From the NCBI GenBank assembly GCA_021234155.1, contig JAJEKV010000045.1, forward strand, positions 4,573,212 to 4,637,211: DNA of 64,000 bases. The letters run 5' to 3'. Under the pieces are notes generated by a model, which was not told where the DNA came from, ran no database searches, and was given only the letters and a program-made list of their open reading frames with translations. Numbering within the stretch: the stretch's first letter is position 1; each line of letters opens with the position of its first letter. Positions 5,595 to 28,882 of this stretch are shown in pieces. The translations under genes and the position numbers were made by a program. The DNA is from Isoetes taiwanensis. Its lineage: Eukaryota > Streptophyta > Lycopodiopsida > Isoetales > Isoetaceae.

Positions 5595-6080
5595 CACAAC
5601 AAGAAAAGGGTCATTTAGCGGCGCCAATAGCGACGTCTGCCGCTGACGTCGGCGGCGTCGCTCGGCCGCGTCATTCCGAACCAGCGTCGCGTCGTCTTGT
5701 CGCATCGCGGCGTTGCGTTGGCGAACGTCAGCGCCAGACGTCGGCGGGATGTGACCGCGGGCGTCACGCAGGCGTCGCATGGCACGTGACACGTGAAATA
5801 TACACGTGGAATATACACGTGGAATATACACGTGGAACATCACCAAAATCCACGCGTGCCGTAAAAGCCCGCGTGTATCGTACGCCGCGCGGCGTGACGC
5901 GTGGAGCGGAACCGCGGGAATATACACGGAAAATACCGTGGAATATACACGCGCGTAAAAGCCGCGTGTATCGCCGGCATGCGGACGTGACGTGGAAATA
6001 TACGTGGAAAATCACGAAAAAATCGGCGTATAGAAAATCCACGTGGCAAAAAAAAGCCACGTGGATACGTCGCATGCGAC
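5595..6080. repeat. CACTA left terminus and subterminal repeat zone
   Basis: The terminal inverted repeat (5595-5623) is followed by a GC-rich zone that contrasts sharply with its AT-rich surroundings. From about 5790, units of AATATACACGTGGA repeat in tandem, and variants with ACGTGGAAAT continue to about 6060. Family knowledge: the subterminal repeats of CACTA elements bind the element's accessory DNA-binding protein (TNPA type). The open frames across this zone (for example 5556-5927 minus) are composition artefacts. Confidence 0.75.
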
Positions 6081-8879
6081 GTGTAGGGGAAAAAAAAAAA
6101 AATAAAAAAAATATTTATATAAAAAATATATTTATATTTATATAAAAATATTCATATTTTTAAATAGTCACAAAATTATTTTTATATTTATATTTTTAAA
6201 TAATCACAAAAGTGAATTGTATTTATATTTTAAATAATCACAAAAGACTTCGTTAAGAGGAGTATCCACCCTTTTAGCCTAGAGCTACTCTCTCACCAGT
6301 TCGATTCGAGTAGTCATCCGAAGTCATCGTAGTTAGAGGGCCTCAAAACGTCACCGCTTACGGTTGTGATTGGATGGCTCTCCAAGCGACGTTCTGCAGA
6401 TCCTCGCCGCCCAGAAGCGCCCCATGTCATGCTCTAGACCTTCATTCATATCCGCCATTTGCTTCCTATAAAACCAAAAGAATATGGCGTTAATGTAGTT
6501 CATAGAATTATAATAATTTTCTACAACGCATTCGCATTCCCGAAAGTGGGAGAGTTCCCTCGTCGTATAACTGTTGTCTGAGGATAAAGCGACTCCGCGT
6601 TAAAGTGGCTACTTGTGCGTCTTTGCTTGTTAGGGGGCAAACCCGTATAGATGTTCCTATGAAAATATAACGAGTATTAGCTAGTGACATTTAAAGTTCT
6701 TATTAAAATTAATGTGAACTAATATAGCTCTTCACGAATCTATAGAGAAACCCTTTTACCGTGGCCAAGGGCCAAATGAGGCGCCTTTCGGTCACTTTTA
6801 GTTGCTTTGTCGGTCCGAGCTCTATGTTTGCTTTACGGATCCTTTGCAGTTCGAATGCAATTTGATTGCAAGGCACACAACATTATCACAAGTTAAAGTG
6901 AGCGAATGACAAAAAATAAGAAATACCTTGATATCTTCCTTGTGGAGATTAAGTGGTTTAGGGACTTTGACCAATCGCCTCCTTCTTTTTCGCCAAAGTT
7001 GCTTGGTTCCTTGACCACATGGTGCCTTTGACGCCATCGATAGATCAACGCCATATCAAAATAATAAAAACAAGACTATGACTAGGTCATGTACCTCCTT
7101 TTTCGTATAAGCTTCGCCCATCATCGAAGTGAGCTTCTTCGGTTAAACGCCTTTGCTTTTTCTATCTACGGGAAACTCTGTTTCATTTTATTTTTGACGC
7201 TCTCTATTTCGCGTTGGTCATAAGCGCCGTGCCACTCCCTATACCGCTGGGAGGCCATAAGCGAGATATTATTTGTGACCGCGTCCTCGATGTAGTATAA
7301 AGACACTTCCCTCATCATCCTTCTTAGGAAGAGCGTCCACTGAAGCATAAATGGTGGGTATATAATAGCGTGTTTATGTCTCACGTCAATATACATATCC
7401 CAATCCGATTAAGAACCTTTTGAGCACTTTGCAATGTATTCTAAGTGAAGAGAATGAACAAAACAACAAATTTAGATGACAAAGTACTAATATTTAAGGT
7501 TGATATCTTAAATAATATGTTCACATAACTTACATCAAAAAATTATTATTAATATGATAGTCGGGTATATTCATGGCCAAATCACCCGGAACTTACGTGT
7601 CTAAAACAAAGCGAAATGGGCGGCTCTTCTTCATGACACGTGGGCGTCGTCGGGATCCTTCCCTCTCCAAGTCGGTGGCGACCATGTTCTTGGATCCCTA
7701 ACCTGTGATGATAAATGGCGATCTTGAAAGGTTGTGAGTCTGTTGCTCCACTACTTCTTGACACACGGGAAGTAATGAGAGAATGAGCATCTTTAACATC
7801 TTTGCAACCAAAGAAATGTTTGATGCGTGGTGGATATATATTTACACCATTTGAAATCTTCCTCCAAGTTCCTTGCATTAGAAAAATCATTCCCGTCTCT
7901 TGCCTAGAGCGGGGAGTCCATACTACGTCTAGCATTCTCAATATTCTCGCGAAGCGTGGAGGCCGATAATCAACACTATGTGCGTTGGGGAATAGGGCGG
8001 GAGGCTGCCTAACTTGGCGTTGGTGTCAAAGAGAGGCAAAATATCTTTTGCAATTTGGTCTCTCGGCGGGAGACATGTTTAGCGAGGAAAGGGAGGGGAG
8101 CGGAGGAGGCTACTTGAGAAGCACAAATATCATGCATTTATTATTTTTATTTTCATTTATTTATTATTTTTATAAAAGCTATCTTAATACCCAAACCTGC
8201 TGGTGTAGTGATAGGTGGAGGTTGGCGTCTTGGAGGACCATGGCCACGATTGCCCCTACCTCGTGGAGTCCTCCTCCTATTTTCTCTAAACTTCGTCCCT
8301 TTCCTCTACACAACAAATTAAAACTCCATGCATAAACTCACATACCTAATTAGAGGGTAAAAGCGTGTTAATAAAAACTATATAAATACTTACCTTAAGT
8401 CTTGCTCATTCTCGTGATGCGATTGCGATTACCTCTATTCATCGCTAGAAAAACACACCTAGATCAAAAGAAATTGTGAGAAAACATTTGATAACCATGA
8501 ATGATATTGGTTGCAATAATAGAATGATACTTACAAACCATAGAGATGAAAAATAGTATTTTTATGGTTGAAAATGTGCCACTAATGAGCCCCTTGCGAG
8601 ACTTCTGCTGATCTTGACCGTCTTGGCCAGGGCGGGGGAGACAGCGTAATGCCATGAATATTGCATCGGCGAGAAAGAGGGCCACAATGAGGAAAGCAGC
8701 TAAGAATTGAGCCTCCCGCCATGACTATATATATTAATTTGAACATAGCTTGAGAATTAGCGAGAGAAAAGCTTTGAACAAGTGTCTTTGAATAAATACC
8801 TAAATTTATATTCTTATCTTCTTATTTATATTAGAAAAAGTATCTCATATATATGTATGGGGTGCATATCGAACTCTAG
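6081..8879 (-). other. CACTA interior, unresolved coding-like sequence
   Basis: An AT-rich strip (6081-6245) is followed by about 2.6 kb with codon-like minus-strand segments, including 6822-7037 (basic, WRKRRRRL), 7166-7396 and 7582-7941. This is where a CACTA accessory gene (TNPA or plant transposase_24 type) might lie downstream of the transposase. I could not match enough of the sequence to claim it. Frames are short and interrupted. Confidence 0.3.
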
Positions 8880-9145
8880 GTTGCCATATTATCGGGCCAT
8901 GTATCATGTCATACTTGAACCCTAAATTATCCCGTGGCATTTTTAGTGCCACATCATGAAACCTCCCTACGTTGCGTGTGGCACATCATCAAACCCTAGG
9001 TTGTGTCGTCGCGACTTCCTATTGCCACATCATAGTAAGTGCCATGTCATCAAACCCTAGCTTAAATGTGCCACATCATCAAACCCTAGATTGTGCCACA
9101 TGGCATTTACAATCTAGGGTTTTGATGTAACACACAAAACCTAGG
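8880..9145. repeat. Short minisatellite around AAACCCTAG/TGCCACATCATC
   Basis: At least five imperfect units combine ACATCATCAAACCCTAG with TTGTGCCAC. One inverted unit (ATCTAGGGTTTTGATG) appears at the right edge. AAACCCTAG resembles but is not the telomere heptamer. Confidence 0.65.
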
Positions 9146-11030
9146 GTTTGGCGTCTGACGACACTTTATCTACAAGTTATGATTAATAATTTATTTTACC
9201 ATTAATAATAATTTTTTGATTAATAAATTACTTTTTTCATTAGTAATTTTGACTAAAAAACATTTATTGGTTGCAACAAGCCTCAAATAGGAAGACAAAA
9301 TTATATTAATCACTTCTTGCAAGCATTTAACGATAGCTTAGCCATCTCAAAGTGGATCACCACACTTCATATGTCGTCTCTCTCTCACAACTATATCGGA
9401 GAAAAGCCTGCTTGTTTTGAACACATCGACGGCCTTGAGCAATAGATGGAAGCGATCCATGTGCACCAGCTCTCTATCCATCATCATTTGGACCTTCATA
9501 TGTTGGATGATGTCCAATGTGCTAGAGTATCGATTAGGTTGGGTTTATCTCAACACACAACCCCATAAGCCCGCATTGCACGGACAAAATCAAGGAGCAT
9601 CTAAGTAAATGTAGCCCGGGGAATATATGTCCGGATATCTCATGCCCCATGATGCTTGGTCATCGATGATGATGTAAAACTCTCTTCTCCCACCAAGGAT
9701 ATCGCTGGTTCCATCTTGTAGTGTATAGCGGGCTCTTCAATTTGGGCATTAAGCTCCTTGCAAAAAAGCGGGGGGCGTGTCCCAATCACCAATAGCCACC
9801 CACACATTTGTAAAGGGAGTCATCAAAATGGAGTTTTACCCTTTTGCAATTGAGCTTTGTGTGTGTCCAACCTTGGGCGTGGATGGCATAGACTCATACA
9901 CCCAGGCGAGAGCTATTTAAGGGGCGTGCTTATACCGCGAGTCTCATTTTGGCTTTCCACTCGCTTATCTTCATATCCCGCCCTTCTTGGAGCACTATGC
10001 ATTGCATTTGACCATCTCCTATAAGAAGAGAATTGGCTGGAAGATGGTCAAAATTACGCAAAGGTTCCTCCATTCATGAATGGCGGGACTACCATTGGTC
10101 CTGTGGGCTCATCTCCACAAAAGACCTCGGGGGCAAGTCAAAGGGTGTGGCCAATCTTTGGACTTGGGCTCTTGAAGCGGATATACTTGTCGACCAACAA
10201 CCATGATGCAGCTCTATCTTGGCCTCTCCACATAATGCCGGTTATAATAATCATCTTGATTAAAAGTACGGGGTTACCAAGATCCGGATTTGGTATATTT
10301 GGCGATCTTGTTTACTACCAATGCACTTTACAACTCCAACGGCATCCACGGGGAATCTTTGTCAATAAATGCGACACATTTATCATGAGCATGTAATGAT
10401 AATCTAGCCCTGCACCAATAGAGCTCCCACCATGGATAAGACTATCTAACTCCTTCACACGCTCATCATTGAGGCGCTCGCGGCCATCTTGTGATCTTAA
10501 GTCGAACCTTTGCGCCACGCGAATTAGCCCATCGTCCCATTATGCCTCGGCATAGGGGCTCATAAGTGGCACTTTTATACCAAGTAGCATCCTCAATTAA
10601 ATTCGAGGATTGCAAACCCAAGACTTTAAGTTCTTTCTCATCATATCTTCCAACTTCGGACTCATTACTCGGCCACCTCCCACATAATTGGTGACATTCT
10701 TTCTCAAGCGATGCTACAAAGCGGTTAATTGATCATCGGTTTGCATATGTCGTTAAATCGATGCATGCGCATATTTGATTGATGAGGATGCTTCTAATTT
10801 CACTAAGCATCTCTGTCCCTTCATACGAGGCCATTTTATGCCTACAAACAAAACAAAATAATGAATACAAAAGCCAAGCATGCACAAAGTAAATGCAACA
10901 TATCTGACAATATCAAACATGTATGCGGACCATATAATCATTACTTATAACACGCCCTATGGCGACTAATACCTTATCCGGCCCCCAGCCCCAAAAGCAA
11001 GAAAAAAAAAAGAAGAAGAAACAAGAAAAA
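9146..11030. other. CACTA interior, no assignable gene
   Basis: It contains minus-strand coding-like stretches, for instance about 9340-9530 (reads as a Met/Asp/His-rich helix-like segment) and 10315-10518, separated by stops. I could not place them in a family. A cysteine-protease (Ulp1) gene, common in some transposons, was considered but no His-Asp-Cys triad pattern was visible. Confidence 0.3.
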
Positions 11031-11039
11031 CTAAATAGG

Positions 11040-11480
11040 TTAGATTAGGGTATTCGGGACCCACGGTCAATTTACATTAAGTATTACTAGTTAATTAGTT
11101 AGCGAGATAGTCCCAAATTTTAGTTAACTTTTTAACCAAAAACACTACCTAAACTTATCTTAGCACCTTGTTAGGATTAGTTAGCAAAATTAACTAAAAA
11201 TTAACTAAATTAGAAATTAGCACTATAGAGGTCACTTTAAGTTTAGTTAATTGTACATATAATTTTTTTATGCCTTTGGCTAACTTAACTAGACATGTTA
11301 GAAATAATTTAGTTAATTAGTTAAGTTATTTTTTTTACCAACGCTTTTAGTGCGAATTAGTACTACATTAAGTTAGCCTAACCTATTTTTTTTTTTAGCT
11401 TAACGGGTGTGAAGGGAATCATCGATTCTTGTTAACTTAACCTAGCCCTAGCTACCTCTAGCTAAAGCCGACAATAAAAA
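11040..11480. repeat. AT-rich TAAGTTA-type block, possibly a decayed MITE
   Basis: Dense repetition of TTAGTTAATTAG, TAACTTAAC and TTAAGTTAG on both strands resembles the subterminal composition of the Harbinger element at 46.5-51.4 kb (which has TTAACCTAACTTAAC near its right end). No clear terminal inverted repeat could be delimited. Confidence 0.3.
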
Positions 11481-11489
11481 AGCGTGAAC

Positions 11490-11885
11490 TAAGGCCCGAA
11501 ACACTGGTCCTCCCCCTTTCGCGGTGGAGCCGACCATGTCCTTCTTGAAGCCAGTAGCCACATCTACCTAAGAATGAGAAGAAAAAGTGGACTTGGACCC
11601 GGACACCTAGTCCTCTCCACGCAAAGGTGGAGCCCGACCAGTGACCTTGAACAAGCCACTACAATTTTATTTTAAACCTAAAAATAACAAGTGGGCTGGA
11701 AGTGGACTTGAACCCGCATCTGTGGTCCTCTCCACTCTAGGTGGAGCCGACCGTGCCCTTGAACAAACCACTCATTAACCTAGGAAACATTTATGATTGT
11801 AGTGAAAGTGGACTTGAACCCGGGTACATGGTCCTCCCCACTCTAGGTGGAGCCAACCATGCTGCCCTTGAACAAGCCACTCCAT
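11490..11885. repeat. Four hairpin-bearing ~105-bp repeat units (left set)
   Basis: Four diverged units have the pattern GTGGACTTGAACCCG, a short spacer, GGTCCTC, then an inverted repeat TCCAC-5 nt-GTGGA, then GCCGACC and CCTTGAACAAGCCAC. The third and fourth units are clearest at about 11700 and 11810. Three related units occur at 23.84-24.13 kb in the same orientation, on the other side of the transposase. The reverse complement contains GGTTCAAGTCC, which resembles a pol III B box, but no matching tRNA body is present. Confidence 0.6.
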
Positions 11886-12013
11886 CAATTTTTTAACCTA
11901 CTTAAAACTATAAAATAAAAATGCAAGTCGATCAACTACTTACCAAAATAAGGACGCATGTACAAGATCACAATCGGGTCCAAATCGTAATAGAAAGCTG
12001 CAAAATGTAGTAA

Positions 12014-12850
12014 CAAAGCATTAGAGGAATAAGAACAAAGAAGAAAAAAGATCGAAGAAGAAAAGAAAGGAAAAAAAAAAAGGGGGGATAGAAAACAAGA
12101 GATAGAAATAAAACAAGAGAAAGAAATAAGAGAATAGAAGGGAAGAAATAAGGATAGAATAGAGAAGAAATAAGAGAAGAAACAAGAAAGAATGAAGAAA
12201 AATAAGAGGAAATAAGAGAAGGGAAGGGAATAGAATGGAAGGAAGAAATAAGGAAGGGAAAGAAAAGGATCGAATGGAAAGTGAGGAAGAAATGTGTGAA
12301 GAATAAGAAACAAATGAAGAATGAAGAAATGAAATTAAAAAAGAATGAAGAATAAGAAATGAAAAAAAAAATGAAGAATAAGGAAGGGAAGAGAAGAAAG
12401 AAATGAGGGAAGGGAGGGGGAAAGAATTAGGAATGAGAAAGCATGAGAAAAGAATGGAAATGAGAAACAAATGAGAAAGCATGAGAAAGAAATGAGAAAG
12501 AAATGAGAAAGCATGAGGAAAAGAAATGAGAAAGCAAGAAATTAGAAAGAATGAGGAAGAATGAGAAAAGAGTGAGGAATAAAGAATGAGAAAGCATGAG
12601 GAAGAAAAGAAATGAGAAAAAAATGAGGAAGAAAAGAATGAGAAAGAAATGAGGAAAGAAGAAATATGGGAAGAAAGAATGAGGAAAGAATGAAGCATGG
12701 AAGAAGGAGGAAGAAATGAAGCATGAGGAAGAATGAGGAAGAAATGAAGCATGAAAAAGCAAACTAAGGAGGAAGAAATGAAGCGAGGCATGGAAGAATG
12801 GGAAGAAAAAAAAAATCAAGAACAAAGAAGAAGAGGAAGGAAAGGAAACC
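12014..12850. repeat. Polypurine tract, ~835 bp
   Basis: The plus strand is almost entirely A and G, built from variants of GAATGAGAAAGAAATGA and GAGGAAGAAATGAAGCATG. Long minus-strand open frames here (such as 12021-12791) translate to Phe/Ser/Leu/His runs only and are artefacts of composition. Confidence 0.9.
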
Positions 12851-13039
12851 AAAAAAGAGGAAGGTTGGGCATGCACCATCCAATCCAAAAAAACCTATTC
12901 AATCTAAAAACATGATATACTAACCTTTAGAATGGTTGCTTGCGGTGTAGATCGGTATTACTAATGCGGATCGCCCAAGAACCTCAAGAAAATAGGGCAA
13001 AAGAAGTTCCGGAAAGGATTAGAGGATTCCAGGCGGTTC

Positions 13040-13160
13040 AAAATATTTTTTAGCGTCGCATTAATTGCGCCACGCCGCATCACGGCGGTTTCAAATCTGC
13101 CCGCGACGCGGCGTCCCTGGGGCGGCCCAATTTTGTTATAGCGGCGTTATTGTTTTGCAT
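13040..13160. repeat. GC-rich block resembling a CACTA subterminal zone
   Basis: TTTTTTAGCGTCGC is followed by dense CGCC/GGCG motifs, like the TTTAGCGGCG seen just inside the outer CACTA terminus. It sits immediately before the GC-rich array. With 18085-18173 it may delimit a nested CACTA relative, but its outer end is not recognisable. Confidence 0.4.
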
Positions 13161-13199
13161 CTTTTTTTAATGTGAAGCTCATTAAAGTTTGTCCCTAGG

Positions 13200-16100
13200 C
13201 TTATTTGAACAATCCCGAAACACCAATCCTTGAACGGAGGATTCCAATCGGTTTTCGTATATGGAGGCCCCTCTCCCGGGGAGGGTGTTCATTAGCATAC
13301 ATCCCCGTGGCGGTGCGAGCCTTGAATGACGGCCCCCTCCCGAAGCGTTTTTGGGGTCCGGCTCACAGGGGCCGGGACTCCTCCCCTCTTTGAGGTGGCC
13401 ATTCCAAAAGTCGAGCGTTGTTTGACTTGGGGAAGGGTGCAGTCATGCTTGCCCAACAACGGAAGCCGGACCGTTCTAACCCCAACGCTTGGAGGCCCTG
13501 GACCTTATCCAGAAAATTTTGGGAGGCGTTTTCCTGTTTCTTTTCTGATGACCATAGAAGCCTTGTGACCAAAACCATAATTTAATTCCATGCCATGCAT
13601 TAACTACGAATTTATAAACCATAAATGCAATAAAATGCATAACTAAAAAGAGTTTGCATCGAAAAAAAGGCGAAGTCTTTGACAAGGGGGGCAACAAGGC
13701 GGTCTTTGGACACATTAAAAAATTTTCACTTGGAAACTATGAAGCAATCTTTCATCAAGGTACAATTGTTTTACGAAAACAAAACCAGTTCATTACAAGT
13801 TAGTTATGCCATCCATGTCAAATAGCTTTAGGGAGCGGAAAAACCAAAACAAAAACCCTTCTAGGCTTAAGTTTGCCAATGCAAGCAGACCAGCGGGCTG
13901 CCAACCCGTTCTAATGCTAACCCTTTGACCTGGAACCTTATCCTAAAATTTCGAAGAATTGGGGGTACGTGTCTTTGGAAATGGATTAGGATTCGGTGGC
14001 AAAAAATCGCACTTATTTTCGTACAATGCATTAATTACGAATTTATGAATGTCTTTGCCCTTTACAAAGCCCCCGACTTCTACTTGCCACATGGAGGAGG
14101 AGGACAGGGCCCAAACTCGCTCCGTCGGTTCCCCTTGCTCCGTATTCTTGTTGCGGCTTCCGGCCGGTCCCAAGTGCAACAGACCAAGTCTCGGCCCCAA
14201 AAACGCAAACCCTTCTAGAACACAGCAACCCACGGGGTTTACGTTTTGGAGGCCCTCTCCTTGTCGGTTCGGGGGGACCTTGCCGCCCTTGACGGGAGTG
14301 GGGGTGTTGGCCTTGAGCACGGACCCTAAAATCCCGGCTGCTTGCCCGAATTTCCCTCTCCCCAAGGCCACAGGGGCCGGACGGCCGACCTCCCTCTCTA
14401 GGAATCGCGATTTGACTACGCCAATGGACTCCGAAGAACGTCGACGTTGCCACGGGGACCAAGTTCCGTGGCGAGAAGACCACCCAACCTCCAAGAAGCC
14501 AAAGTAGCTCACTTCCATCACACTTTAGTCAATTGGCCTAGGATGTGGATCACGGGATCTTGTCGTGGAGGCGTGAGGTGTTTCTTTCTTTTGCAAAACC
14601 GACCTTGTAACTTGCTCCCTAGGGTAATTTTGCCATTCGGACGATTTGGCGGGACGATTTGCCATTCCGAGCCTCCCGTCCGAGCGACAAGACACTGCGC
14701 GTTTCTACAAAGCCAGCTTTCGGGGCGCCCGCGGTTTGGAAGTTCTCGGACCATATGGAATCTTTTGGGCCTTCCCGAAGAGGGGCCACATCGGAGCGGA
14801 GGATCAGCGGTCCGATAGAGGCAACCGCTCCGGGAGGGTGGTCATTAGCGTCAGCCGGCCGGAGCTAGTAGTTAAGGGCTGCCTCGGGAACTTTTTTGGA
14901 TCCCGCCTCTTGGGTGGGACTCTCCCAATCTTGTGAGGATCCAAGCCAAGGTCGGCCTCGTTTGACTTGGGGAAGGTGCCGGCTCGGTTGCCCACCAACG
15001 GGCATTCCCGGCCGTTCTAATGCTAACCCTTTGACCTAGACCTTCTCCTAAAAATTTGAAAAATTGGGCCGTCTTTGGGAAATGGATTAGGATTCCAGCC
15101 GGCAAAAATCAAATTTATTTTAGTACAATGCATTAATTGCAAATTTATGAATGTCTTGCCATTTGCAAAAGCGCCCCCGACTTCTACTTGCCACATCGGA
15201 GGAGGACAGGCCCAAACTCCATCGCTCCGCCGCCCCCCTTGCTCCGTATTCTGGCTGCGGCTTCTCGGCCCGGTCCCAAGTGCAATGAGACCAAGTCTCG
15301 GCCCCCCAAATGCAAAACCCTTCTAGAACACGGCAAACCACGGGGTTTCACGTTTTTGGAGGCCCTCTCCTTGTCCGGTGTGGCGGGACCTTGCGCGTGA
15401 CTTGGCGTGGAGTGGGGGTGTTGACGCCTTGAGCCGCGGACCCTAAAAATCCCCTGGAAGCTGCTTGCCCAATTTCCTCTCCCAAGGCCACGGGGGCGGA
15501 CGGGCAACCTCCCCTCTCGGGAATCGCTGATTTGGCTCTGCCAATGGACTGGGACGCGTCGGCGTTGCCACAGGGACCAAGTTCGTGGCAGACCACCCGA
15601 CCTCAAGAAGCGCCAAAGTAGCTCACTTCCATCACACTCGTAGTCAATTGGCCTAGGATGTGGATCACGGGATCTTGTCGTGGGCGTGAGTGTTTCTTTC
15701 TTTTGCAAAACCCGACCTTGTAACTTGCTCCTAGGGTAATTTCGCCATTCAGACGATTTGGCGGGGTCGATTTGCCATTCCGAGCCCTCCTCCTAAGTGC
15801 GAACGACAAGACAACTGCCCGGTTTCTACAAGGCCGGCCTCGGCGATTTTGGTTTGACAAGTTCTCCCGGACCGATCTGGAATCTTTTGGGCCTTCGAAG
15901 AGGGGGGCCCTGAATCGGAGGATCCAACTGGCCGGATAGGGGAACCGGCTCCCCGGAGGGTGGTCATTGGCGTCACGGCCAGGGAGCCTTGCCGGAAAGG
16001 GCTGCCTCGGGAACTTTTTGGATCCCTCAGCCTCTTGGGGTCCGGACTCTCCCCTCTTGTGAGGGATCCTGCAAGGTCCCGGGCCTCGTTTGACTTGGGA

Positions 16101-18060
16101 AGGGTGCCACGGCTCGGTTGCTCCCAACGGGCTGCCCGACCGCTCTAATGCTAACCCTTGACCTAGACCTTCTCCCAAATTTTCAAGAAATTGGGGGTAC
16201 GGTGTCTTTGGAAATGGATTAGGATTCCACCTGGCAAAAATCAATTTATTTTTAGTACAATGCATTAGTCTTCGTAATTTATGAATGTCTTTACCCTTGC
16301 AAAAGCGCCCCCGACTTCTACTTGCCACACGGGAGGAGGGATGGCCCAAACTCCGCCGCCTGTTTCCCCTTGTCTGTATTCTCGGTTGTATTTTCTCGGC
16401 CAAAGTCCCAAGTGTATCAGTCTCGCCCCCAAACGCAAAACCCTTCTAGAACCGGCAACCCACGGGGTTTACGTTTTGGAGGCCCTCTCCTTGTCGATCC
16501 AGGCGGACCTTTGGCGCCGTGACTTGATGTGGAGTGGGGGTGTTGACGCAGCACCACGGACCCTAAAATCCCCCTAAGCCGCTTTGCCCCGAATTTCCTC
16601 TCCCCCGCTCCCCGGGATCGGGACGGGCGACCTCCCCTCTCCCATCGCGATTTGACTACGGCCAATGGACTCGAACGCCGGCAAGGTTCGGGGACCAAGT
16701 TCCGCGGGCCGGCGACCACCCGACCTCCAAGAAGCGCCAAAGTAGCTCACTTCCATCACACTTTCGTAGTCAATTGGCTTAGGATGTGGATCGCGGGATA
16801 CCGGCCGTGGAGGGCGTGAAGTGTTTTCTTTCTTTTACAAAACCGACCTTGTAACTTGCTCCCTAAATTAATTTCGCCATTCCGGATGATTTGGCGGTGG
16901 TCGATTGCCATTCCGAGCCTCCCGCGTCTCAGAGCGACAAGACGCCGCGGTTTCTCTGGCCGGAGCCTCGGGACGCTCAAGGCTGGGTTTGACAAGTTCT
17001 CCGGACCGACCCGATCCTCAAGAGGGGCCCCCTGAACGAATCTTTTGGGCCTTCCCAAGAGGGGCCCCCGAACGGAGGATCCCGCGTCCTGGATTATGGG
17101 GAACCGCCTCCGGGAGGGTGGTCATTAAGCGTCACGACCCCTAATGCAACCTTTGACCTAGCCTTCTCCCCTCAAATTTGCCACGTGAAGGGCTACCTCG
17201 GGAACTTTTTTAATTAATTTATGGATCCCGCCTTGGGGTCCCACTCTCCCCCTCTTGTTCGGGGATCCCCGACAAAGGTCCTCGCCTGCGTTTTGAGGCT
17301 TGGGGAAGGTGCCATTTCGGGAGTATACCTCGCCACCCGGACCCTAAACCCCCGGCCGCTTCTAATCTCTAACCCTTTGACCTAGACCTTCTCTCCCAAA
17401 TTTCAAAATTGGGGACTCAAGACACCCCGTGAAGCCGAAATGGATTAGATTCCAGGGCGGGCAAAAAATTAGAATTTATTTTAGCACAATGCATTAATTG
17501 CTTCTCCGTAGCCTCCTGTTATGAATGCCTTGCCACCTTGCAAAAGCTCCTGACCGAATCTTCTACTTGCCACATCTGCCGGAGGGGAGGACAGGTCCAA
17601 ACTAAAGCTCCGCGCCGAACTTTTTTTGGATCCCCTTGTTCAGTGATTCTCGGCTCCCTGCTTTGATTCTCGTAGGGTCCCAGCGTAACAGACCGCTCTA
17701 GGTAACCCTCCTAGACCTTTCCCAAAACGCAAACCCTTCTAGAACCTGGCAACCCAATGCATTAATTGGTTTACGTTTTGGAGGCCCCCCGACTTCCTTG
17801 TCAGGATTCCGTCAGTTCCTGACCTTGCGCCGTGGACTTGACGACGGAGTGGGGGTGTTGACGCCAGATCACGGACCCTAAAAATCCCCCGGAAGCTGCT
17901 TGCCCCGAATTTCCTCTCCCCCCCAAGGCCCCGGGGACCCCAAGACGGGCGACCTCCCTCTCCGTGAATCGCGATTTGACTCTGCCAATGGACTCAGAAC
18001 GTCGACGTTGCCCTCGGGACCAAGTTCTGTGACCAGAAGACCACTCATGTTAACCCAACT
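13200..18060. repeat. Tandem array of GC-rich ~1.1-kb repeats
   Basis: The anchor ACAATGCATTAATT recurs near 14023, 15125, 16257 and 17486 (spacings about 1102, 1132 and 1229 bp). A weaker fifth copy lies near 13594. After each anchor come the same landmarks in order: ATTTATGAATG, a CCGACTTCTACTTGCC block, AAACCCTTCTAGAAC, GTTTACGTTTTGGAGG, GAGTGGGGGTGTTG, and CTCACTTCCATCACAC. The copies differ by very many small indels in GC-rich words, and the last copy contains scrambled pieces of other parts of the unit. Overlapping open frames on both strands are not conserved between copies in frame, so I call none of them genes. Confidence 0.8.
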
Positions 18061-18084
18061 AAGAAATGAGTTTTAAACGTCACT

Positions 18085-18173
18085 TCCAGTACATCGCGAT
18101 GCGGCGTCAATACGCCGCATGGCGTTATTTGTTATAAACGACGTCGTTTTAAACTATTTTTATTTTTGTTGTG
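18085..18173. mobile_element. Possible nested CACTA-type end
   Basis: GC-rich CGCGATGCGGCG and ACGCCGCATGGCG words lead into a terminus reading TTTTTATTTTTGTTGTG. Its reverse complement starts CACAACAAAAATA, like the outer element's CACAACAAGAAAA. It lies right after the repeat array. No matching left end with the same flanking triplet was found, so this is an orphan or truncated end. Confidence 0.4.
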
Positions 18174-18750: not shown

Positions 18751-18751
18751 A

Positions 18752-19818: not shown

Positions 19819-20157
19819 TCATATCAGCGGAAATGACTTCGATACCATTGCCTTCGCCACTACCCCCCACAATCTTCGCCCCTTCATCACTCCATAAGCG
19901 AGGTGCATCCGATGTACGGCATGAAATATATTCTCGCCATATAGAAAAGTGACTCTTTCGGCAAGCCATCCCTCCGCCATACTACCTTCAGACGTGCTCT
20001 TTGACGCACCATATCCTTCAATACCTTCATAAACCTTTCCAAGAAAAACATCCATCTCGCATGTGCAGCCTCCCCTGAGCTCCACTTCCTCAATAAGATG
20101 TACCAAAAGATGGGTTTGATCACAAGAAAGCTCAGAGGGAAACTCCTTCTCCAACAA
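19819..20157 (-). pseudogene. DUF4218 block of the CACTA transposase
   Basis: An open segment of 112 codons reads LEKEFPSEL..., LLVHLIEEVELRGG..., YGASKSTSEGSMAEGWLAE, matching the plant DUF4218 pattern (LxxxFPPSFFD, HLxxEVxxxGPV, RNKARPEGSIAEGY). An alternative overlapping frame contains RQRARLKVVWRRDG, a sign that the true frame is shifted part way. Confidence 0.8.
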
Positions 20158-20678
20158 GCAACATGCCTCTCGCCATTTTCACTTTCATCTCTTCAATTTC
20201 GCCTTTCGGTATAGTTTTTTACACATCCACCTATGAGGTCCAAAACAAAAACTTAGCCACAAATAAAATAGACGGGGACCACTAAATCAACATGGGTAAC
20301 AACCTTATGACCTTTGATAGGGCACTTATTGCCTCCAATGGTCCCTTGTCTAAAACTCCCTAAAGGTCGTGGGCATGAAGAACTGCATGATCCAAACACC
20401 AAATATAAGTTATGGGTTACATTTTATAGTAGTGCATATATATGTGGACTTCAATTGCTTACATGCAAGAACTTATGCCGGGCCATGGGACTTTAAACCA
20501 ATTAGCCCCACACTACTTGTGAATGCGGTTCGCAATGATTGCATGTAACCAAGCAGGTGTTCTAAGGGCCCTTAAATCATCATAAATAGCTCGATGGTCA
20601 GACCCTAGCAATAACCCATTTTGCCGGAGGAAGTGGTTGCCCTTCACCCTCGGATCCATGCCTCTTTCTTTGTATTAC

Positions 20679-21960
20679 TTACCTTAAGGTCCATCCCGGC
20701 ATTTGTTGTGTCTTTTGACCAAATACATGCTTCCATAAAGAGTTTCCCACGCTCTTGAAGATATGCATCGGGTCTAAAAGGTGTTGAATCAATAGGTCGG
20801 TCCAATATGGTAGTCTATAAAAAAACAGACTTCCTTTTTCATATTGGCGGTAAAGACTTCCTCCTCCGCCAGCTTCCTCGCCACCATCAGATAATTCCTC
20901 ATCCTCACCGCCTAGGTCGGCCACGACTCTCCTCACCGCAGTGCCCCCTACGGATTTCTGCGGATTTTCCCCTCTTCCTTCTTATCCCAACGCCACCCCA
21001 TTCTCGTATGGTAATTCTCGCTTGGTGGTTCTCAGATAGTCTATAGTGCCACTAAATTGTGCACGCCCTCAAGGGGTGCGAGCTGCAAATACTTCCTAAA
21101 ACCCTCAGATACTACTTTCTTCGATGCTTAGAGTGATCGGTGCTGCAACTTTTCCCCACATATCATGCAAGGGAAGTGCCCCGATGTCTTAAACCCGAAC
21201 ACTTTCGGAAAACCCGTGAAAGTCATGCATAGTCCACAATAGTATACCTCTAAGATTAAAAACGCCATTTTATGGGCATCGTAGACCTGAATACCCTCGT
21301 GTTCCACAAAGGGAGTAACTCATCCACAATTATTCTTAGGTACACATCTAAATTACTTGGTTTTTCTTCCCGTGTATCAATAAAGTCATCATAATGTGCC
21401 CACTCTTCATCAACAACCATGGGGTATGTTGTAGTTCACTATCATCAATCGGCCATGTAGACCATGCAAAATATCATTGTACCATATGGGTTTACGCCAT
21501 CCGGTGGCCAGCCCAAACGCATCGCTACGTGGTTCTTTCCAAAGTCGCCATGTCGCATCGACATGCTTCCAAGCTGCACCGCCGCCGACTCGACGCATCA
21601 CATCATCACTAGATGCATGTGTAGCCGTGAAGTCCATTAGGCTAGCCAATGTCTTGCAACGGAACATCAACTTTAACCTATAGAATAAATTATAGGCAAC
21701 ATATAAGTACCGAAAATAAGTGAATTTACAACTATTTGTAAGAAGTGGTGATGCATATACCTTTGGGATTATTGGAAAGTGTCAATAACCTTCGAGGTAC
21801 CGCTTTTTCCCTTTAGGTCATTCCCTCATCTCTGCTTCATTACATACGAGACAATGAGTGGACTTCTCATGCTCTAGGGGGATAGAAGATCATACAATCA
21901 TTTGGACATGCATGTATGACTTTATAACCAAGGCCGGGGTCTTGAATCATTTTCTTAACT
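20679..21960 (-). pseudogene. Tnp2 (transposase_21) core of the CACTA transposase
   Basis: This is the catalytic core region. The segment at 20679-20936 has the most conserved signature of the family (LPYW..L....LD.MHI), which normally precedes a conserved histidine/asparagine-rich stretch. Upstream, NLDVYLRIIVDELLPLWN and the WKHVDAT block lie in the expected order. TATAG|GTTAAAG near 21690 could be an intron acceptor. Stops and frame changes occur between about 20940 and 21340. Confidence 0.85.
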
Positions 21961-22654
21961 TGAGATCCGCCGGTAGGCATATTGTTCTTCTCTCCGAAGG
22001 ATCTTCTCGTCACAACCTCGCATCTAAGAGTGGTAAGATAAAAGATGGAGATGGTGGTAAGATAGAAAGACTTGATAAGTATGTCACCTCAATAGAGCAG
22101 AGACACTTGCATTGCTCCACTTGAACTTGGTTTGGAGATTGAGAATTAGCAGGCACGCCGACAAACGAGAGGTTCGAGACGCAGGAAATAACTGCGTTTC
22201 TGCTTCGATAACAATAGGGTCATCGTCAGTACGACCAATCCTCGAGGGTATCCCACATCTTCTACCATATCCTTCCACCACCATCCTCGACATCATCTAA
22301 ATCAATATCGTAATTCTTGAAGAGCGGCAACATATCGAATCGATCGTCAAAAAGACTTCGCTCGGTTCGCCAATAGTTTCATCCTCTTCATATTGATCGT
22401 ATGCAATATCTTCATATTGGTGCGCCTCGCTTGAAATTCACGACGATAGGTTTCCCTTTGCTCGTAACTTAGAACTAATGGATCGGATGGAGACCGCCTC
22501 AATGAGTTCATTAACCAGAGTAACGATAACCATCATGTCAAATAATGTAATAAGTATAAAATACATACAACCATTTGTATAGACTCAATAATGACAAAAA
22601 CATATTAAAAAAAAAAAAAAAAAACTCTTTATTCCTTTTTTTAGTACAACAATA

Positions 22655-23120
22655 CTATTGTTCCATCTCAAATGGGAGAGGTCTATCATAGCGATAGTTG
22701 ATGAATAACTCATCTCCAATGTTTATGCTTTTAATAGCACACACCATGATATATCTGCTTTTTCTGCATCTTGTAAAAAATCTTCCTCCCCTCCTTGACA
22801 CTCTAAAAATTCACAATTGCATCGCTTTCACGGTTGTCAATAGAACTGTGATGAACCCCGCAATATTGCCATGAACCCCGGGCCGCACCATCAATAAACT
22901 TCAACTCCTCATCACATGCCCCCACAGCCTATCGACGCAAAGATTGGAATTCATTCCATAAATCCTCATACGCCAAGCATATTTAGTCAAAGTTTGCCAA
23001 GTTTTCCAATCGCATTTTGGACCTGCATATGGCATTAATGGAATGTGGGTATCTCGCCCACTTCTATACGCGTGCGTTTAGATAAGGCGAATCCAGCTGA
23101 CAAATGCGGCTCCTCGCGAT
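22655..23120 (-). pseudogene. Captured SET-domain gene fragment
   Basis: SET domains transfer methyl groups to lysines, usually on histones. Three minus-strand segments, in different frames but in the right order, match the domain. First is HLSAGFALSKRTRIEVGEI near 23100, the Gly-rich strand and xIxxGExI turn. Next is ELKFIDGAARGSW...HHSSIDN near 22880, the IDAxxRGNxxRFxNHSCxPN region. Last is VCAIKSINIGDELFINYRY ending at the TAG at 22655-22657, the closing xAxxxIxxGEELxxDYxY strand. The catalytic NHSC is degenerate (HHSS), frames shift at least twice, and a cysteine-rich post-SET is absent. It lies upstream of the CACTA transposase and is not part of it. I infer capture of a host gene piece. 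Which SET subfamily is unclear. Confidence 0.6.
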
Positions 23121-23778
23121 AATGATGTATCTTCTTCCCCAATAAGCAAATTCTTGATCCATAGGGATAGGTAAGTTCCATCGCCACAAGCCAAATGTCT
23201 TGGCGGTGCCTAACAAAGGGTCTGACTAATCTTTGCAATTCTTCAGAATTTCACGCCGGGCGTGAGGCCAAGCGCTCTTGGGAAATGTGCGACACATGCA
23301 ATGTTCTCATGATTGTAGCCCTTCGTGTTCTTTCACGCTAGGGAACACTCGGCTGAGCGGCACCCATCCACATTATTGATGAATCGGGTTACTGCTTCAG
23401 TTTCATATGCCTCTATGGACAACATTAAACCAAAATCCACATCTAGTTTGGAGGAGACATCAGCATCATCTACCTACATATTTAGATATCATAAACATCT
23501 TGAATATATACTTAAACCGAGAGATACTCTTAAAAAAAAAAAAAATAATAATTGTATACCAACCTGATATCCATGACGAGCATCGATCTGGTGGGTTGTT
23601 CAAATGTACCAAATCTTATCGATGGTCTTCAACAACCGCTCTAAGTCGCTCTCTTCAAATTTCATACATCTTTTACAATCGCAAAACTATTTTGTCCCTC
23701 CGCCAATTACAAAAAGGTAAGTACTATATACCGCATACAATAGTTTGAACGCTGTGATAGATACAATATATGGTAGTA
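23121..23778. other. CACTA interior, unassigned
   Basis: The minus-strand frame 23035-23238 extends above the SET-like fragment and may be more of the same captured gene (MQRLVRPFVRHRQD...), but I cannot match it. An A-rich run (23530-23545) and AT-rich DNA fill the remainder. Confidence 0.35.
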
Positions 23779-23833
23779 TAAACCCTAAACCCTAAACCCT
23801 AAACCCTAAACCCTAAAACCCTAAATCCTAAAT
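23779..23833 (+). repeat. Interstitial telomere-like repeat (AAACCCT)n
   Basis: Five near-perfect AAACCCT heptamers are followed by two imperfect ones (AAAACCCT, AAATCCT). This is the Arabidopsis-type telomere unit (TTTAGGG on the other strand), which supports a plant origin. Confidence 0.9.
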
Positions 23834-23839
23834 GGACGA

Positions 23840-24135
23840 TTGGGCCCTGACACGTAGTCCCTCTCCACTCAAGGTGAAGCCCACCATGCCCTTTCCCCGA
23901 GTAATGACCCTTATATAAGTTTCAATTTCAATAAAGATCTTTTTGGAGACGCCAGCTTAGCCCCCGATACATAGAGTCCCTCCACTCAAGGTGAAGTCGA
24001 CATATGACCTTGACTACGCGACACCTCAATTTTGTAATCTACATTGTACTTAGTAAGGTATGAAGGTGAGTTTGGGCCTGGCACACCGGGTCCTCCACTC
24101 AAGGTGGAGGCGACCGTGTCCTTGACCAAAAACAC
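23840..24135. repeat. Three hairpin-bearing repeat units (right set)
   Basis: These units are related to those at 11490-11885: GGGCCTGGCACACCGGGTCC, then CTCCAC-TCAAG-GTGGAG, then GCGACCGTGTCCTTGA. In the last unit the inverted repeat is 7 bp with a 5-nt loop (CCTCCAC...GTGGAGG). The stem is better preserved than the flanks. Confidence 0.6.
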
Positions 24136-24439
24136 CGCTTTTTTTTTACTACTGCAAGACACGCCCCTCTCCTAGTTTATATATGTCTAGGCTACTAAAT
24201 ACAAGAATCAAGAACTTACATGTGACGGCTCCGGATATCCAAATTCCTCCCTCGGTGGTAAGACAAAGATCAATCTGTCTCCCGCCATCTCCAAAGGCCG
24301 ATCATGCCGATGACCATGGTGATCCATGTAGGGCAAAGAACAAGTATAAGATATGGTTAAAAAGAAGAACACCAAAGGCGCTTAGGGTCGAAGAGGAGCC
24401 GAAAGAAAATAACAATGAAGGCCGAAAAAAAGTTGTTTA

Positions 24440-24925
24440 TATAGAAATCTTTAACGTCGATATGCGACGGACGCCGCCGGGCGACGAGTGTCAACTGGCC
24501 ACATGCCAAGTCACCTACGACTTGGCAAGACACACGCAAGCACGCATGCATCGCAGTGACGTTTCAGAGACCACGCCGCATGCGACGATATAGTCAACGG
24601 GCCAAAATCCGTGTCACATGCGACCGGGCAAGACACGTGGCAAGCACGCATCGACGCAGTCTTTATGTTCTCAGACGTCACATGACGCCGCATGCGACGC
24701 CCGACATTTGTCGTGACATTTGTCGTGACATTTGTCTGCTATGAAATTTATGTATACCTATGTCGCTCGAAAGCAACCTAAAATCCGAAAGCAAGTTTTG
24801 TGTAACAACCTAAAATCTCGCATACCTCAAAAACACTTGAACATAGCTTGATTAGCCGCATCACGTAGCAAATTGTGTGACAGTCCGACATTTGCCGCGA
24901 CATTTGTCGCGGACGATGCCGCCTG
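24440..24925. repeat. GC-rich internal zone with GACATTTGTCG repeats
   Basis: A GC-rich island contains two related halves (GACTTGGCAAGACAC...CAAGCACGCATGCATCG and GGGCAAGACACGTGGCAAGCACGCATCG). Three tandem GACATTTGTCGT units follow at 24698-24735 and related units at about 24885-24912. In composition it resembles the subterminal zones, and it may be another internalised element end. Confidence 0.55.
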
Positions 24926-25199
24926 TGTGGGCGATGGCATTTTTAGGCAAATTTTGATCGACGCTTTGACACATGGGACATTAATGCCTTGATTTGCAAG
25001 GAGTCGCCGGGCGCCTCCCACTATGTCGACACCAAGTTCCTCATTCGATTGCATTTTGTTGCTTCTCTAAAGATGTTGGACTCGAGGATATGGGAGTCCC
25101 ACTTTTTGACTACCCAATATTCTCGTTGTAGAAATTCTAGGGTAAATCCATATGTCATTTCTAATTCCTTCTTTTTTTTCTTTCCTCGATCAACCGGAA

Positions 25200-25595
25200 G
25201 CTAAATTATGAGCTCAAAAAATTCTGGATCAACCATCTCCAACTCCATGTCCATCACTAAATTCATCTGCTTTTTCAAAATACCCATAGCACAAATAGGC
25301 CTATACAAATTAAAACAAGCAATATTATTGTCATATCCTTATTCATCGTGGCATTCATCTTCTTGATATCCATCCTGATCATATTCATCTTCTTCATATT
25401 TTTATCTTCAAATTCCATTTTGAAAAACTGATTTCAGAAATCTATATCATATCATATATCCAGTTTTTTGTATTCTACATCATGCTTATATACATAAGGC
25501 AGTGCCTCAAAAATTCTGGATCAACCATAAGCTAAATTCTGAGCTCAAAAAATTCTGGATCAACCAGGAGCTAATCTGAGCTCAAAACTACCATA
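25200..25595. repeat. Dispersed short repeat CTCAAAAAATTCTGGATC
   Basis: Three copies of AGCTAAATTxTGAGCTCAAAAAATTCTGGATCAACC or its core (25200, 25505, 25530-25565) lie within otherwise AT-rich DNA without a gene. Confidence 0.6.
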
Positions 25596-25601
25596 TTATA
25601 G

Positions 25602-25976
25602 TTATATCAAAAGATAGAATTTAAGTTGCTTCAATACCAAATATCGACTCCAAACAAATTTGAAAACTTTCTCAAGAAGGGTCATTTGCATCCTCGTGAT
25701 CAACATCAGAATTTCCAAAGACCAAAGAGAAGGATCCCTTCGCCAGCTGATGTAAAATTTTTTACCTTGGATATCTCTCTCAAACGAAACCACATCATTC
25801 ACCTGCAAATTCTTTGCCTTGACAAACCTGCTCCAAATTTTTTTGAAGACATAACTTTGCTTAACTATCCCAATAACAAATATCTAAATTTCCACATGCA
25901 TTGATTTTAATCTATAAACGTAAGCATCTTACCTTTTTTTTCTCCACAATTCCATCGCAGTAGCAGGTAAATGTGC
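25602..25976 (-). pseudogene. Captured B3 DNA-binding domain fragment
   Basis: B3 domains are plant-specific DNA-binding domains of transcription factors (RAV, NGATHA, LEC2/ABI3, ARF). On the minus strand, HLPATAMELWRKK (near 25960), WKFRYLLLG (25900) and FVKAKNLQVNDVVSFERD followed by KKFYISWRRDP (25735-25830) match in order. The family patterns are WxFRYxYWxSSQSYVxTxGW and FVKEKxLxAGDVVxFxR...LYIDWxRRP. Wording near the end fits the RAV/NGATHA branch best. Stops interrupt the middle (after LLLG). It sits inside the CACTA element away from its transposase, so I infer gene capture. The 3' frame stays open to 25602. Confidence 0.75.
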
Positions 25977-26041
25977 TTCGCGCTGATTTTTGGAATGACG
26001 AAATAAAACAAAAAAAATCCAACGCAGAATCGCTTATCAAA

Positions 26042-28320
26042 TCAAGTCAGCCCACTTGGTTGCACAAGCACGAAATGAAATGCCGCCTCAAGGACTTTCT
26101 TATCTAACCAATCTACACTATCTTGAGAGCTAACTAGATCCACCACGTAAATATCCGGGTGGAGGTCTAGCATAATATCCTCTAGGTCAACTTTTGTGGC
26201 GCGATGGCTCAAGATCAAACGTGAATCCAAGCTCTCTAAAAGATGACGCTGCATCATTTTCTATACCCTTGCCAACCCCCATCGTGAAAACTACTAATAT
26301 CTTCGCCACAATCGAGATTATTTGCGTGGTCAACTTGATAAGAATGCATTCGCCGCAGCCTACAAGTCGAGACTCATTTGTGCACAAAATCCCATATTAG
26401 CCATTCGCAACGGACCGATAAATTGGTTAGAATATTAGAATACAATTGCGTGAGATGAAGAAGCAAATCTAGACAATGACCGATAACAATAGAACTTCAA
26501 GCACCGTGTATGACTAGATATATTATTATTTCATATTTTATAGCTGCAATTGACATGGTTGGGATGTAATATAGCCGTATTTGCCCTTGCTTGGATGGAG
26601 AAATCAAACTCGTAAGCATTGTCTGGGAACTCATATGTTTATAATTATCAAATTATCGTGGATTTGGAAAGACAATCTCGCAATTGCTTTGATTTTGAAG
26701 GCTAGACCGCCAAAACGCCAAAGATACAATGTAGAAGAATGCAGAGCACCTTGATTGTTTGCCCTAAATCGCTTTTAAAACAATGGGAACATGAATTGAA
26801 GGAAAAGTAGCACCATCCGTCAAGCTATCCGTGGTACATATACCATGAAGATCGAGAAAGAATAAATTGTGTTGAACTTTGTAAGCACGACATTGTGCTT
26901 ACTACATATGGAACCATTTGTTCAATTACGTAAGCCATCCGAAGAGGATGAAAAGAAGCAGCCCCCGTGCTAAGGGCACACCGTCGAACATTAGGTGGTT
27001 TAGAATTATTCGGATGAAGCTCAATCCATTAGAAAAGCTCACACTAAAAGTTCACGTGCTTGTCGGGCTTAAGGGCACAATGAAGATGGTGCCTTTCCGA
27101 ACATGCGACCTTCTACGACACACATATGTCACATATGTCACATATAATGAAAGTTCTAGAATGTTCTAGAAAGTTTTAAAAAGTTTTAAAATATAAGAGA
27201 ATCTTGGGTGAGCCTAAGGAATCCTTCTAGAAAATTCCGAATGTTGTAGAAAGTTCTAGAATGAATGTTGCAGAGAATACACTTATTTTCTTCCCAAAGC
27301 ATTTTGCTAGATGACCAATTAAAATATTTTAGTTCAACCAACTCCACAATTCTCTTGATTTTCGATGAACAAACTTGTCCAAGAAGGCAACAACCTCCAC
27401 AACCTCCCGGAATGGCCATAATGAAGAAATTAAAAAGACAGCTTAAGAGATTTCAAAAAGCGCATGATTTTTGGTCAGTCAGATGTTGTGACCGGGCTTG
27501 ATCATACAATCGATGCAAAGAAGAACCCATAAAAATCTTGGCGCCAAACTAACAAGTTCATGAGTCATGAAGCGAAAACAACTGAAAGCATGGCGCTAAA
27601 AAAAGCACCAAAGGACCCCAAAGAATGTCGGCAAGCTCAACCGCCTTTGTGATCCCTAAGCTCCGTGTCAAGCCCATTTTCCTTTGCACCATGACATGCT
27701 CTACTTTGAAGACTTCCAAGGTAACAAACCGGCGCTTTAGATACTCTCCATCGGCATAGCAAAATGTGAGCTATGTTCCAATTCCACTTTCCATGTATGG
27801 ATCTCCAAACAAGGCCATCAACGTGTGTAGCCACATAGTATCTCCTGCTTTTCAAAATCCTCATCAATGGGGTCGGCTTCATATGGAACTTGTGCAATTG
27901 AAACGCAAATTCCTCCACCATCATATATCACAAAATCATCCCCGACGTTTGTGTAAAGTTGCAAGTTCAAGCATTGTCACTGATTCCAACCTTGATGTTG
28001 ATCTTTCAACTTCCATAGTGCCATTAGAATTACTTGTATACCCAAAGATGAGATTTTAAATCATAACCTTCTTCCCCGTATTGACGTATCCATATGTGCT
28101 TCTTTGGTTTCTTCGATATAGTTCGAGACAATATTTTTCCAGCTCTTGCAATCTCTCAAAGCCCCAAAAACCATTTTTCTCAAAGTCTAGATGAAGGAGG
28201 TAATTCATGCAGTAGCACATCTATCGATGATGCATGTGCGCAACACGCTTTTAAATGAAGCCGCAGTTTGGTCGTCGTAGTCTTTTTTCATGTGTATCAA
28301 TCGGGCGTGTATTGAATTTG
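26042..28320 (-). other. CACTA interior with unidentified coding-like pieces
   Basis: Codon-like minus-strand stretches occur at 26042-26400 (two overlapping frames, one with DLEDIMLDLHPDIYVVDL) and 27637-27960 (including DDFVIYDGGGICVSI and ILCGYTR). They are broken by stops and could be further captured exons or a CACTA accessory gene. Near 27140-27260 the words AGTTCTAGAATGTT and AGAAAGTTTTAAAA recur. I recognise no family. Confidence 0.3.
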
Positions 28321-28329
28321 TAATCCTAA

Positions 28330-28882
28330 AACCAAAACTTCGTATAAAAAATATACGCCACATGCGACCACCCACGCCACATATAATGCATTAACGTGTC
28401 ATATACGCCACATATACATACCGACGTGTCATATACGTCACATATAATGCATGGACGTGTCATATACGTCACATATATGCACCGACGGTCATATAATGAC
28501 ACATACGCCACATACGCCATATATACGACGCCGCATCGGCGCCACGCCAGAACATCACACCGGCCGCCCACCGCAAGCGTCCACCGGGCGTGGCAGATCG
28601 CTACGCCACGTTGTCGACGTCGCACCCATACGCCGCGGCGACTGCATGACACTGTCGTCGACACCCGTGACACTGCCGGGCTCGCTGGCGGACACCGCCG
28701 GTGTCGGGCGGCGACGCCATACGTGTCGACGTCGCACCATAATGTGTCGACGCCGCGACCATGCCGCGTGCGACGCGGCGTGGCGTGACGCCGATTGACG
28801 CCGCGATGGTGACGTTATTTGGCGTCACGTCGCCGCACGTCGCCGCAAGCCCACGTCGCTAAAAGTCCATTCTCTTGTTGTG
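28330..28882. repeat. CACTA right subterminal zone and terminus
   Basis: Tandem units containing ACGTGTCATATACGTCACAT and ATATAATGCAT (28340-28500) grade into dense CGCCGC/GTCGACG words, ending with the terminal inverted repeat 28854-28882 (…CTCTTGTTGTG). It mirrors the left zone in being a GC-rich block with short tandem repeats. Open frames here are composition artefacts. Confidence 0.75.

Follow-up and report, generated by a model that had tools for sequence, protein, structure and literature searches.

A complete 23.3-kb CACTA-type transposon with CACAACAAGA termini in Isoetes taiwanensis, a member of a large and apparently young family

The stretch of DNA analysed here, 64,000 nucleotides of the Isoetes taiwanensis genome (GenBank assembly GCA_021234155.1, contig JAJEKV010000045.1, positions 4,573,212 to 4,637,211 of the forward strand; hereafter the window, to which all coordinates refer), contains a 23,288-bp interval, 5595-28882, that we consider, with a probability of about 0.95, to be a complete transposon of the CACTA type (EnSpm), belonging to a large, young family whose termini read CACAACAAGA. 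The boundaries are precise, six separate insertions of the family carry duplications of their own, the empty form of the insertion site is present in the genome, and the cargo, including the region of the tnp2 transposase, is shared between copies.

An earlier note on this DNA, made from the letters alone, had placed the ends at exactly these positions and had described a 24 of 29 inverted match flanked by AAT, all of which is confirmed by the sequence and by a scan of the window. CACAACAAGA is present at 5595 on the plus strand and, as the reverse complement, at 28882; the left end opens with CACAACAAGAAAAGGGTCATTTAGCG and the right end, read as the reverse complement from 28882, with CACAACAAGAGAATGGACTTTTAGCG. 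The terminal 29 bases of the two ends are identical at 24 positions in inverted orientation, and comparison of the left 29-mer with all minus-strand positions of the window gives one match of 24, the next best being 18. The triplet AAT at 5592-5594 recurs at 28883-28885 as a 3-bp target site duplication. The two 500-bp ends together contain the motif ACGTCGC 8 times, the interior (6601-28300) 0 times, and the left end also repeats ATACACG, CACGTGG and ACGTGGA. The element accordingly displays the features by which CACTA/EnSpm transposons are recognized, namely, a short terminal inverted repeat that opens in the CAC-xA manner, a 3-bp target site duplication (AAT here, and of the same length in all 5 of the other paired copies), subterminal repeats within a few hundred bases of the ends, and a transposase of the tnp2 type (PF02992). 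The terminal features are as follows.

5592..5594 (no strand): left copy of the target site duplication, AAT (sequence; one AAT only in each of the 7 empty sites)
5595..5623 (+): left terminal inverted repeat, 29 bp, 24/29 against the right end (window scan; family terminus)
5595..6094 (+): left subterminal region, G+C 0.57, with the short repeats ACGTCGC/GCGACGT and ACGTGGAATATAC (sequence)
28382..28882 (-): right subterminal region, G+C 0.59, with short repeats, ACGTCGC being common to the left end (sequence)
28854..28882 (-): right terminal inverted repeat (window scan; family terminus)
28883..28885 (no strand): right copy of the target site duplication, AAT (sequence; empty sites)

The genome (1.66 Gb in 1,110 contigs) was searched with probes of 201 bases from each end of the element, the window's own ends being included among the matches. 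For the left end (best 40 of 366 candidates scored), 40 of 41 matches start at probe base 1, the lone exception being a 36-base fragment, and for the right end (best 40 of 598 candidates scored), all 40 do so; therefore, 5595 and 28882 are the true termini of the family. A search with the terminus pattern, which allows for both types of terminus and at most 2 mismatches, detects 607 forward and 580 reverse matches, a genome total of 1,187 ends; the reversed pattern that served as the control gave 0 in either direction. Thus, CACAACAAGA is how the elements of a large family normally end, not a damaged CACTACAAGA, and these letters, which the earlier note read correctly, are no oddity of one element. 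A search of the literature for a CACAA or CACAACAAGA terminus returned nothing useful, which is not evidence of absence.

Among the best 40 left and 40 right ends, there are 6 pairs less than 80 kb apart in the correct order and orientation, including that of the window, and 0 in a wrong order or orientation, which is not what would be expected of ends from different families, a possibility raised in the earlier note. Among the first 100 of the 1,187 termini listed, 20 neighbouring pairs are convergent at distances of up to 80 kb, and all but one of them combine a left-type with a right-type end (19 pairs, 11 at 5.0-11.2 kb and 8 at 20.9-59.1 kb). The twentieth convergent pair is right-right and spans 12.6 kb, and 4 more neighbours are adjacent right-type ends in the same orientation. 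These listed pairs, defined by the type, orientation and spacing of their ends, provisionally indicate two size classes (5-11 kb and 21-59 kb), the probe-paired copy C921 (18.3 kb) lying slightly under the long class. Elements longer than 20 kb are common in the family (8 of the 19 left-right pairs listed).

The empty-site comparison proposed in the earlier note returned exactly the breakpoints that it had claimed. The two flanks of the element, joined with one AAT into a probe of 500 bases, match five genomic places over bases 1-500 with 89-92% identity, the element missing, and two more over bases 1-456 and 20-456 (85% and 83%). In 7 of 7 cases, the junction reads AATTAAT immediately followed by CTT, with one AAT and no element; the exact stretch missing at these sites is the 23,288 bases plus one AAT. 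The empty sites are paralogous copies of a host repeat and do not represent this locus in a second individual: the host site (5345-5594 and 28886-29135) belongs to a repeat dispersed in the genome, of which at least 7 related copies exist, and the element was inserted into a copy of this other repeat.

Five other complete copies were identified by end pairing, with lengths of 18,269, 24,903, 29,237, 46,539 and 51,420 bp, and all of them are bounded by perfect 3-bp duplications (GAA, AAA, AAG, AGA and GCA). Their flanks are unrelated to those of the window element (of 200 flanking bases, 0-8 are covered on the left side and 0-2 on the right side). Inside, the copies follow the window element collinearly in long blocks, at ~84-92% raw identity. 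Counting matches of at least 150 bases, among which array units may substitute for one another, C1060 covers all 23,288 of the 23,288 window bases, C1081 covers 23,253, C1072 22,729, C909 14,863 and C921 7,207. These copies, their own duplications and the empty sites are in agreement with the proposal of the earlier note that the interval moved as one unit. No nested insertion private to the window copy was found, given that C1060 spans the whole element with no gap over 100 bases, although an older insertion common to all copies may exist; hence, of the causes to which the earlier note attributed the size of the element, internal arrays and captured gene fragments are indeed present, whereas nesting does not account for the length of this copy. 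The relatives carry insertions, in particular, one of 9 kb in C909 and a stretch of ~28 kb in C1072. The former, at the window equivalent of 26542-26546, ends in near-inverted sequences, GGTGTAAATAT, and is flanked by AGCTG as a duplication of 5 bp.

The interior of the element contains the following features.

12020..12890 (no strand): purine-rich low-complexity tract, GAAGAAAT-like (sequence)
13890..18045 (+): tandem array, ~4 units of ~1.1 kb (unit counted with one probe)
19948..20223 (-): part of the transposase gene with DUF4218 (PF13960) (Pfam E 4.5e-07, 30.1 bits against the curated 27)
21080..21607 (-): tnp2 transposase domain (PF02992), across three frames (Pfam; open in the family copy C932)
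25737..25862 (-): fragment of a B3 DNA-binding domain (25.6 bits, below the curated 30.1; C1060 gives E 3.4e-15)
26712..27098 (+): SNF2-related helicase fragment (PF00176; E 4.1e-09 here, 1.5e-17 in C1081, found also in C1060)

In three other copies, the best tnp2 frames score 96.5, 72.7 and 60.8 bits, each copy having two frames. In C932, a family copy recognised by its right end, the domain scores 231.9 bits and is free of stops over the matched part (positions 1-186 of 213, in a frame of 425 amino acids); it lies 7.2-7.8 kb from a right end, as in the window element, and the surrounding 1.3 kb is collinear with the latter at 91%. The captured genes of the earlier note are recovered as fragments, the B3 and SNF2 matches that recur in other copies. 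The SNF2 piece matches a solved structure of an SNF2-family helicase (E 8.2e-07), and the best 40 of 259 genome candidates listed are, with the exception of the window, 93-97% identical to it. When their positions were compared with 40 right ends and 5 pattern termini, 29 of the 40 listed matches were found, correctly oriented, upstream of a listed right end (at most 12 kb away), the distance being 1.7-2.2 kb for 23; by position, these 29 are transposon copies. Pfam yields no match at all on either strand of 5594-15195, and Rfam, at the gathering threshold, 0 matches over 5595-28882.

Unit counting substantiates the internal array described in the earlier note and shows that its length changes between copies: by one probe, the 1.1-kb unit is present 4 times in the window, 9 times in C1060, 16 times in C1081, 6 times, raggedly, in C1072, and not at all in C909, and C921 contains a divergent array with a spacing of ~0.81 kb. 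Also within the element, at 23779-23832, is a short interstitial (TAAACCC)n tract, a repeat of the plant telomere type, adjoined by a diverged repeat with a spacing of ~105-120 bp that occurs also at 11490-11866.

By analogy with known CACTA biology, the tnp2 transposase (TNPD type) and a protein that binds subterminal repeats (TNPA type) would bind the GC-rich repeats, and the bound proteins would then pair the two ends, excise the unit and insert it with a 3-bp stagger. The B3 and SNF2 fragments and the 1.1-kb unit, we infer, entered an ancestor of the family and then travelled as passengers; growth and shrinkage of the array between copies, together with later insertions in some relatives, would produce the spread of sizes.

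The age of the family hinges on how the differences between copies are read. Five copies (the window, C1060, C1081, C1072 and C909) were aligned, C921 being excluded as too incomplete, and their raw pairwise identity is 0.90-0.946. The differences form clusters of substitutions and indels at CG/CHG sites, with identical stretches between. In the right segment (the right 8 kb), substitutions amount to 9-13% within 4-8 nt of CG/CHG and to 0.4-0.8% beyond, with 1.8-3.6% left when control motifs are used; in the left segment, the contrast is weaker, with 11-15% near, 1.6-1.9% beyond, and 2.1-3.6% for control motifs. Gap columns, long deletions counted, decrease from near to away from CG/CHG, from 10-12% to 5% on the right and from 13-15% to 6-7% on the left. 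A leave-one-out count of differing 10-mers points in the same direction, more weakly: 12.9% differ at CG centres (264 cases), 13.0% at CCG (46) and 66.7% at CWG (only 15), compared with 4.4-4.8% for 10-mers without CG/CHG (12,226 WW, 2,072 CC/GG and 688 GC), so that there is a real background of differences away from these sites. The pattern extends to an unrelated 2.7-kb duplicate (35716-38371 and 39202-41850, 97.2% identical), used as a control, in which all 48 substitutions and 31 of the 33 gap columns are within 3 nt of CG/CHG, leaving 0 substitutions and 2 gap columns in the 1,883 columns further off. The argument leans chiefly on this control, on the contrast by distance from CG/CHG and on the clean columns described below.

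Deamination alone gives rise to C-to-T changes, not to indels, and methylation-linked base-calling error is therefore likely to be the main cause of the raw divergence. Errors of this kind have been described in nanopore data from bacteria (PMC12506013). Some true deamination is likely as well because CAG and CTG (0.39 and 0.43 of the expectation) are depleted more strongly than any other trinucleotide of the element and TAG, the deamination product of CAG, is raised (1.21 of the expectation); in the rest of the window, CAG and CTG are likewise the two lowest, at 0.72. Given that the differences track CG/CHG in the way expected of methylation-linked base-calling errors, the frameshifts of the tnp2, B3 and SNF2 regions in the assembly are no proof of decay. 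In clean columns, i.e., those at least 8 nt from any CG/CHG, the copies differ by 0.26-0.56% in the right segment and by 0.5-2.8% in the left, values that are biased somewhat low by the filter because any change giving rise to a CG or CHG drops out of the count. At a substitution rate of 7e-9 per site per year, these divergences translate to ~0.2-0.4 million years for the right segment and ~0.4-2 million years for the left one, and the copies look young. A codon-position test on the interior found no 450-bp window with p<0.01 in either segment; its power is low, real differences between the copies being so few, and no conclusion is drawn from it.

Several observations weigh against a single young family of complete CACTA elements. 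The letters of the terminus are CACAA, not CACTA, although CACAA is the form at the ends of the family and the CACTA/EnSpm superfamily tolerates variants of the literal CACTA. The interior is not constant, C909 lacking 12999-20540 and C921 most of 7704-25522, where the divergent array is found instead. In the left segment, clean-column divergence is higher (0.5-2.8%), and the two halves of the element may have different histories. The tnp2 domain of the window is open in no single frame, its best frame scoring 27.8 bits against the curated 28.6, and no TNPA-like gene was recognised by Pfam in the parts scanned (5594-15195 on both strands and 18600-28501). Furthermore, for 11 of the 40 SNF2 matches listed, none of the listed right ends is within 12 kb, and transposition activity was not observed in the single genome assembly examined.

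The abundance of the family, with its 1,187 ends, implies that unrelated neighbouring ends exist, as exemplified by the 4 same-orientation right-type pairs and the right-right convergent pair among the 100 termini listed. Conceivably, then, the ends of separate CACTA elements could face each other around unrelated DNA, or, in a composite variant, a single macrotransposition could have carried the interval. Such a bracket is hard to reconcile with the empty sites, which have exactly one AAT, with the five other copies, whose interiors are collinear and whose 3-bp duplications are their own, and with the 0 wrong-order pairs among the probe matches listed, and we give it hardly any credence; macrotransposition may nevertheless be the distant origin of the long form. 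An ancient, dead insertion with a decayed transposase would fit the low raw identity, the tnp2 domain split into three frames here and two in 3 of 3 other copies, the ~5% of gap columns that persist in the right segment away from CG/CHG, the 4.6% of 10-mers without CG/CHG that differ, and the raised TAG. It is nonetheless very unlikely in view of the concentration of substitutions at CG/CHG in clusters with indels, the near identity of right-segment clean columns, the control duplicate with all of its substitutions near CG/CHG, the depletion of CAG and CTG above all other trinucleotides, and the tnp2 domain that is open in C932.

Within the preferred interpretation, a complete member of a young CACTA family, the question is whether the element is autonomous. 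That it makes no functional transposase and depends for its movement on a copy acting in trans, for example, a 5-11 kb sister, is a serious possibility to which we assign slightly less than even odds: no TNPA-like gene is recognised in the parts scanned with Pfam, and a shorter class exists, its 9.5-kb member C299 containing a tnp2 match, albeit one with 2 stops. On the other hand, the long forms carry tnp2, the window copy has DUF4218 in addition, and reading frames cannot be judged in this assembly. A bolder proposal would make the long form a selected, currently mobile unit in which B3 and SNF2 are working parts and the array is a satellite that arose, and changed its length, within a transposon on the move; the B3 protein might, e.g., replace TNPA and the remodeller fragment might open heterochromatin. 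Taken jointly, these ideas are very unlikely to hold.

Elsewhere in the window, a 510-bp direct duplicate (41943-42452 and 45805-46314, 99.2%) lies next to long microsatellites of GAA/AGA, a mark of the 2.7-kb pair as well; the 510-bp duplicates are perhaps terminal repeats of retroelements. An open frame of 443 amino acids at 48096-49424 contains a DDE_Tnp_4 transposase domain (E 4.5e-34) and is, judging by the domain, PIF/Harbinger-like. Retroelement-type matches, with zf-RVT, DUF4283, and Pol_BBD with gag_pre-integrs, are located at 52537-53196 (-), 57084-58679 (-) and 59234-59785 (-).

Because size, breakpoints, empty site and sister copies agree, the family lends itself to studying how 20-50 kb can be moved by cut and paste, and, with its youth, two size classes, shared gene fragments and variable array, it offers a natural series for the gain of cargo and satellites. 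It also carries a warning in that repeats of this assembly look 5-10% diverged and frameshifted and are probably much closer to each other, which would mislead dating and the calling of dead genes.

Similarly huge relatives are known in a few other plants, and the Isoetes family is a new giant of a known kind. What looks new is the family itself, its CACAA termini, the recurrent long class and the 1.1-kb array of changing length, although plant repeat libraries may already hold a name for it. Comparable in kind are the soybean CACTA elements Tgmt* and Tgm9, described as 20.5 kb long (PMC2613891, PMC5552171), which are likewise plant CACTA elements of more than 20 kb; for Tgmt*, short imperfect terminal inverted repeats, asymmetric subterminal repeats, a 3-bp duplication and a tnp2 transposase are also reported. 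As described, the soybean elements end in CACTA and not CACAA, much of Tgmt* consists of one 14.6-kb transposase gene, whereas arrays and gene fragments take up a large part of the Isoetes element, and the activity of Tgm9 was observed, whereas here it is inferred. The Tpn1 family of Ipomoea nil, for which 339 copies with a mean of 7,081 bp and a maximum of 40,619 bp are reported (PMC5105172), similarly comprises hundreds of copies with 3-bp AT-rich duplications and captured host gene regions, but the captured host sequence is described as replacing the interior, whereas the long Isoetes interior recurs in several copies. The Jozin CACTA elements of Chenopodium, one of which, of 16,523 bp in C. 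quinoa, is reported to hold an array of 32.5 x 171 bp (PMC8978399), share with the Isoetes element the captured gene fragments and a satellite array within a CACTA element; the Isoetes array differs in its unit of ~1.1 kb, present 0-16 times between copies, in a larger element. For a red alga, En/Spm families of 16-20 kb are mentioned in a review (PMC6431247). Finally, the LsC1 family of lettuce, with more than 1,700 CACTA members reported on the basis of a shared ~28-nt terminal inverted repeat (PMC8195511), resembles the Isoetes family as a large CACTA family with a shared terminal inverted repeat and 3-bp duplications, and differs from it in its average length of 6.8 kb and in that LsC1 itself, as described, has no transposase gene.

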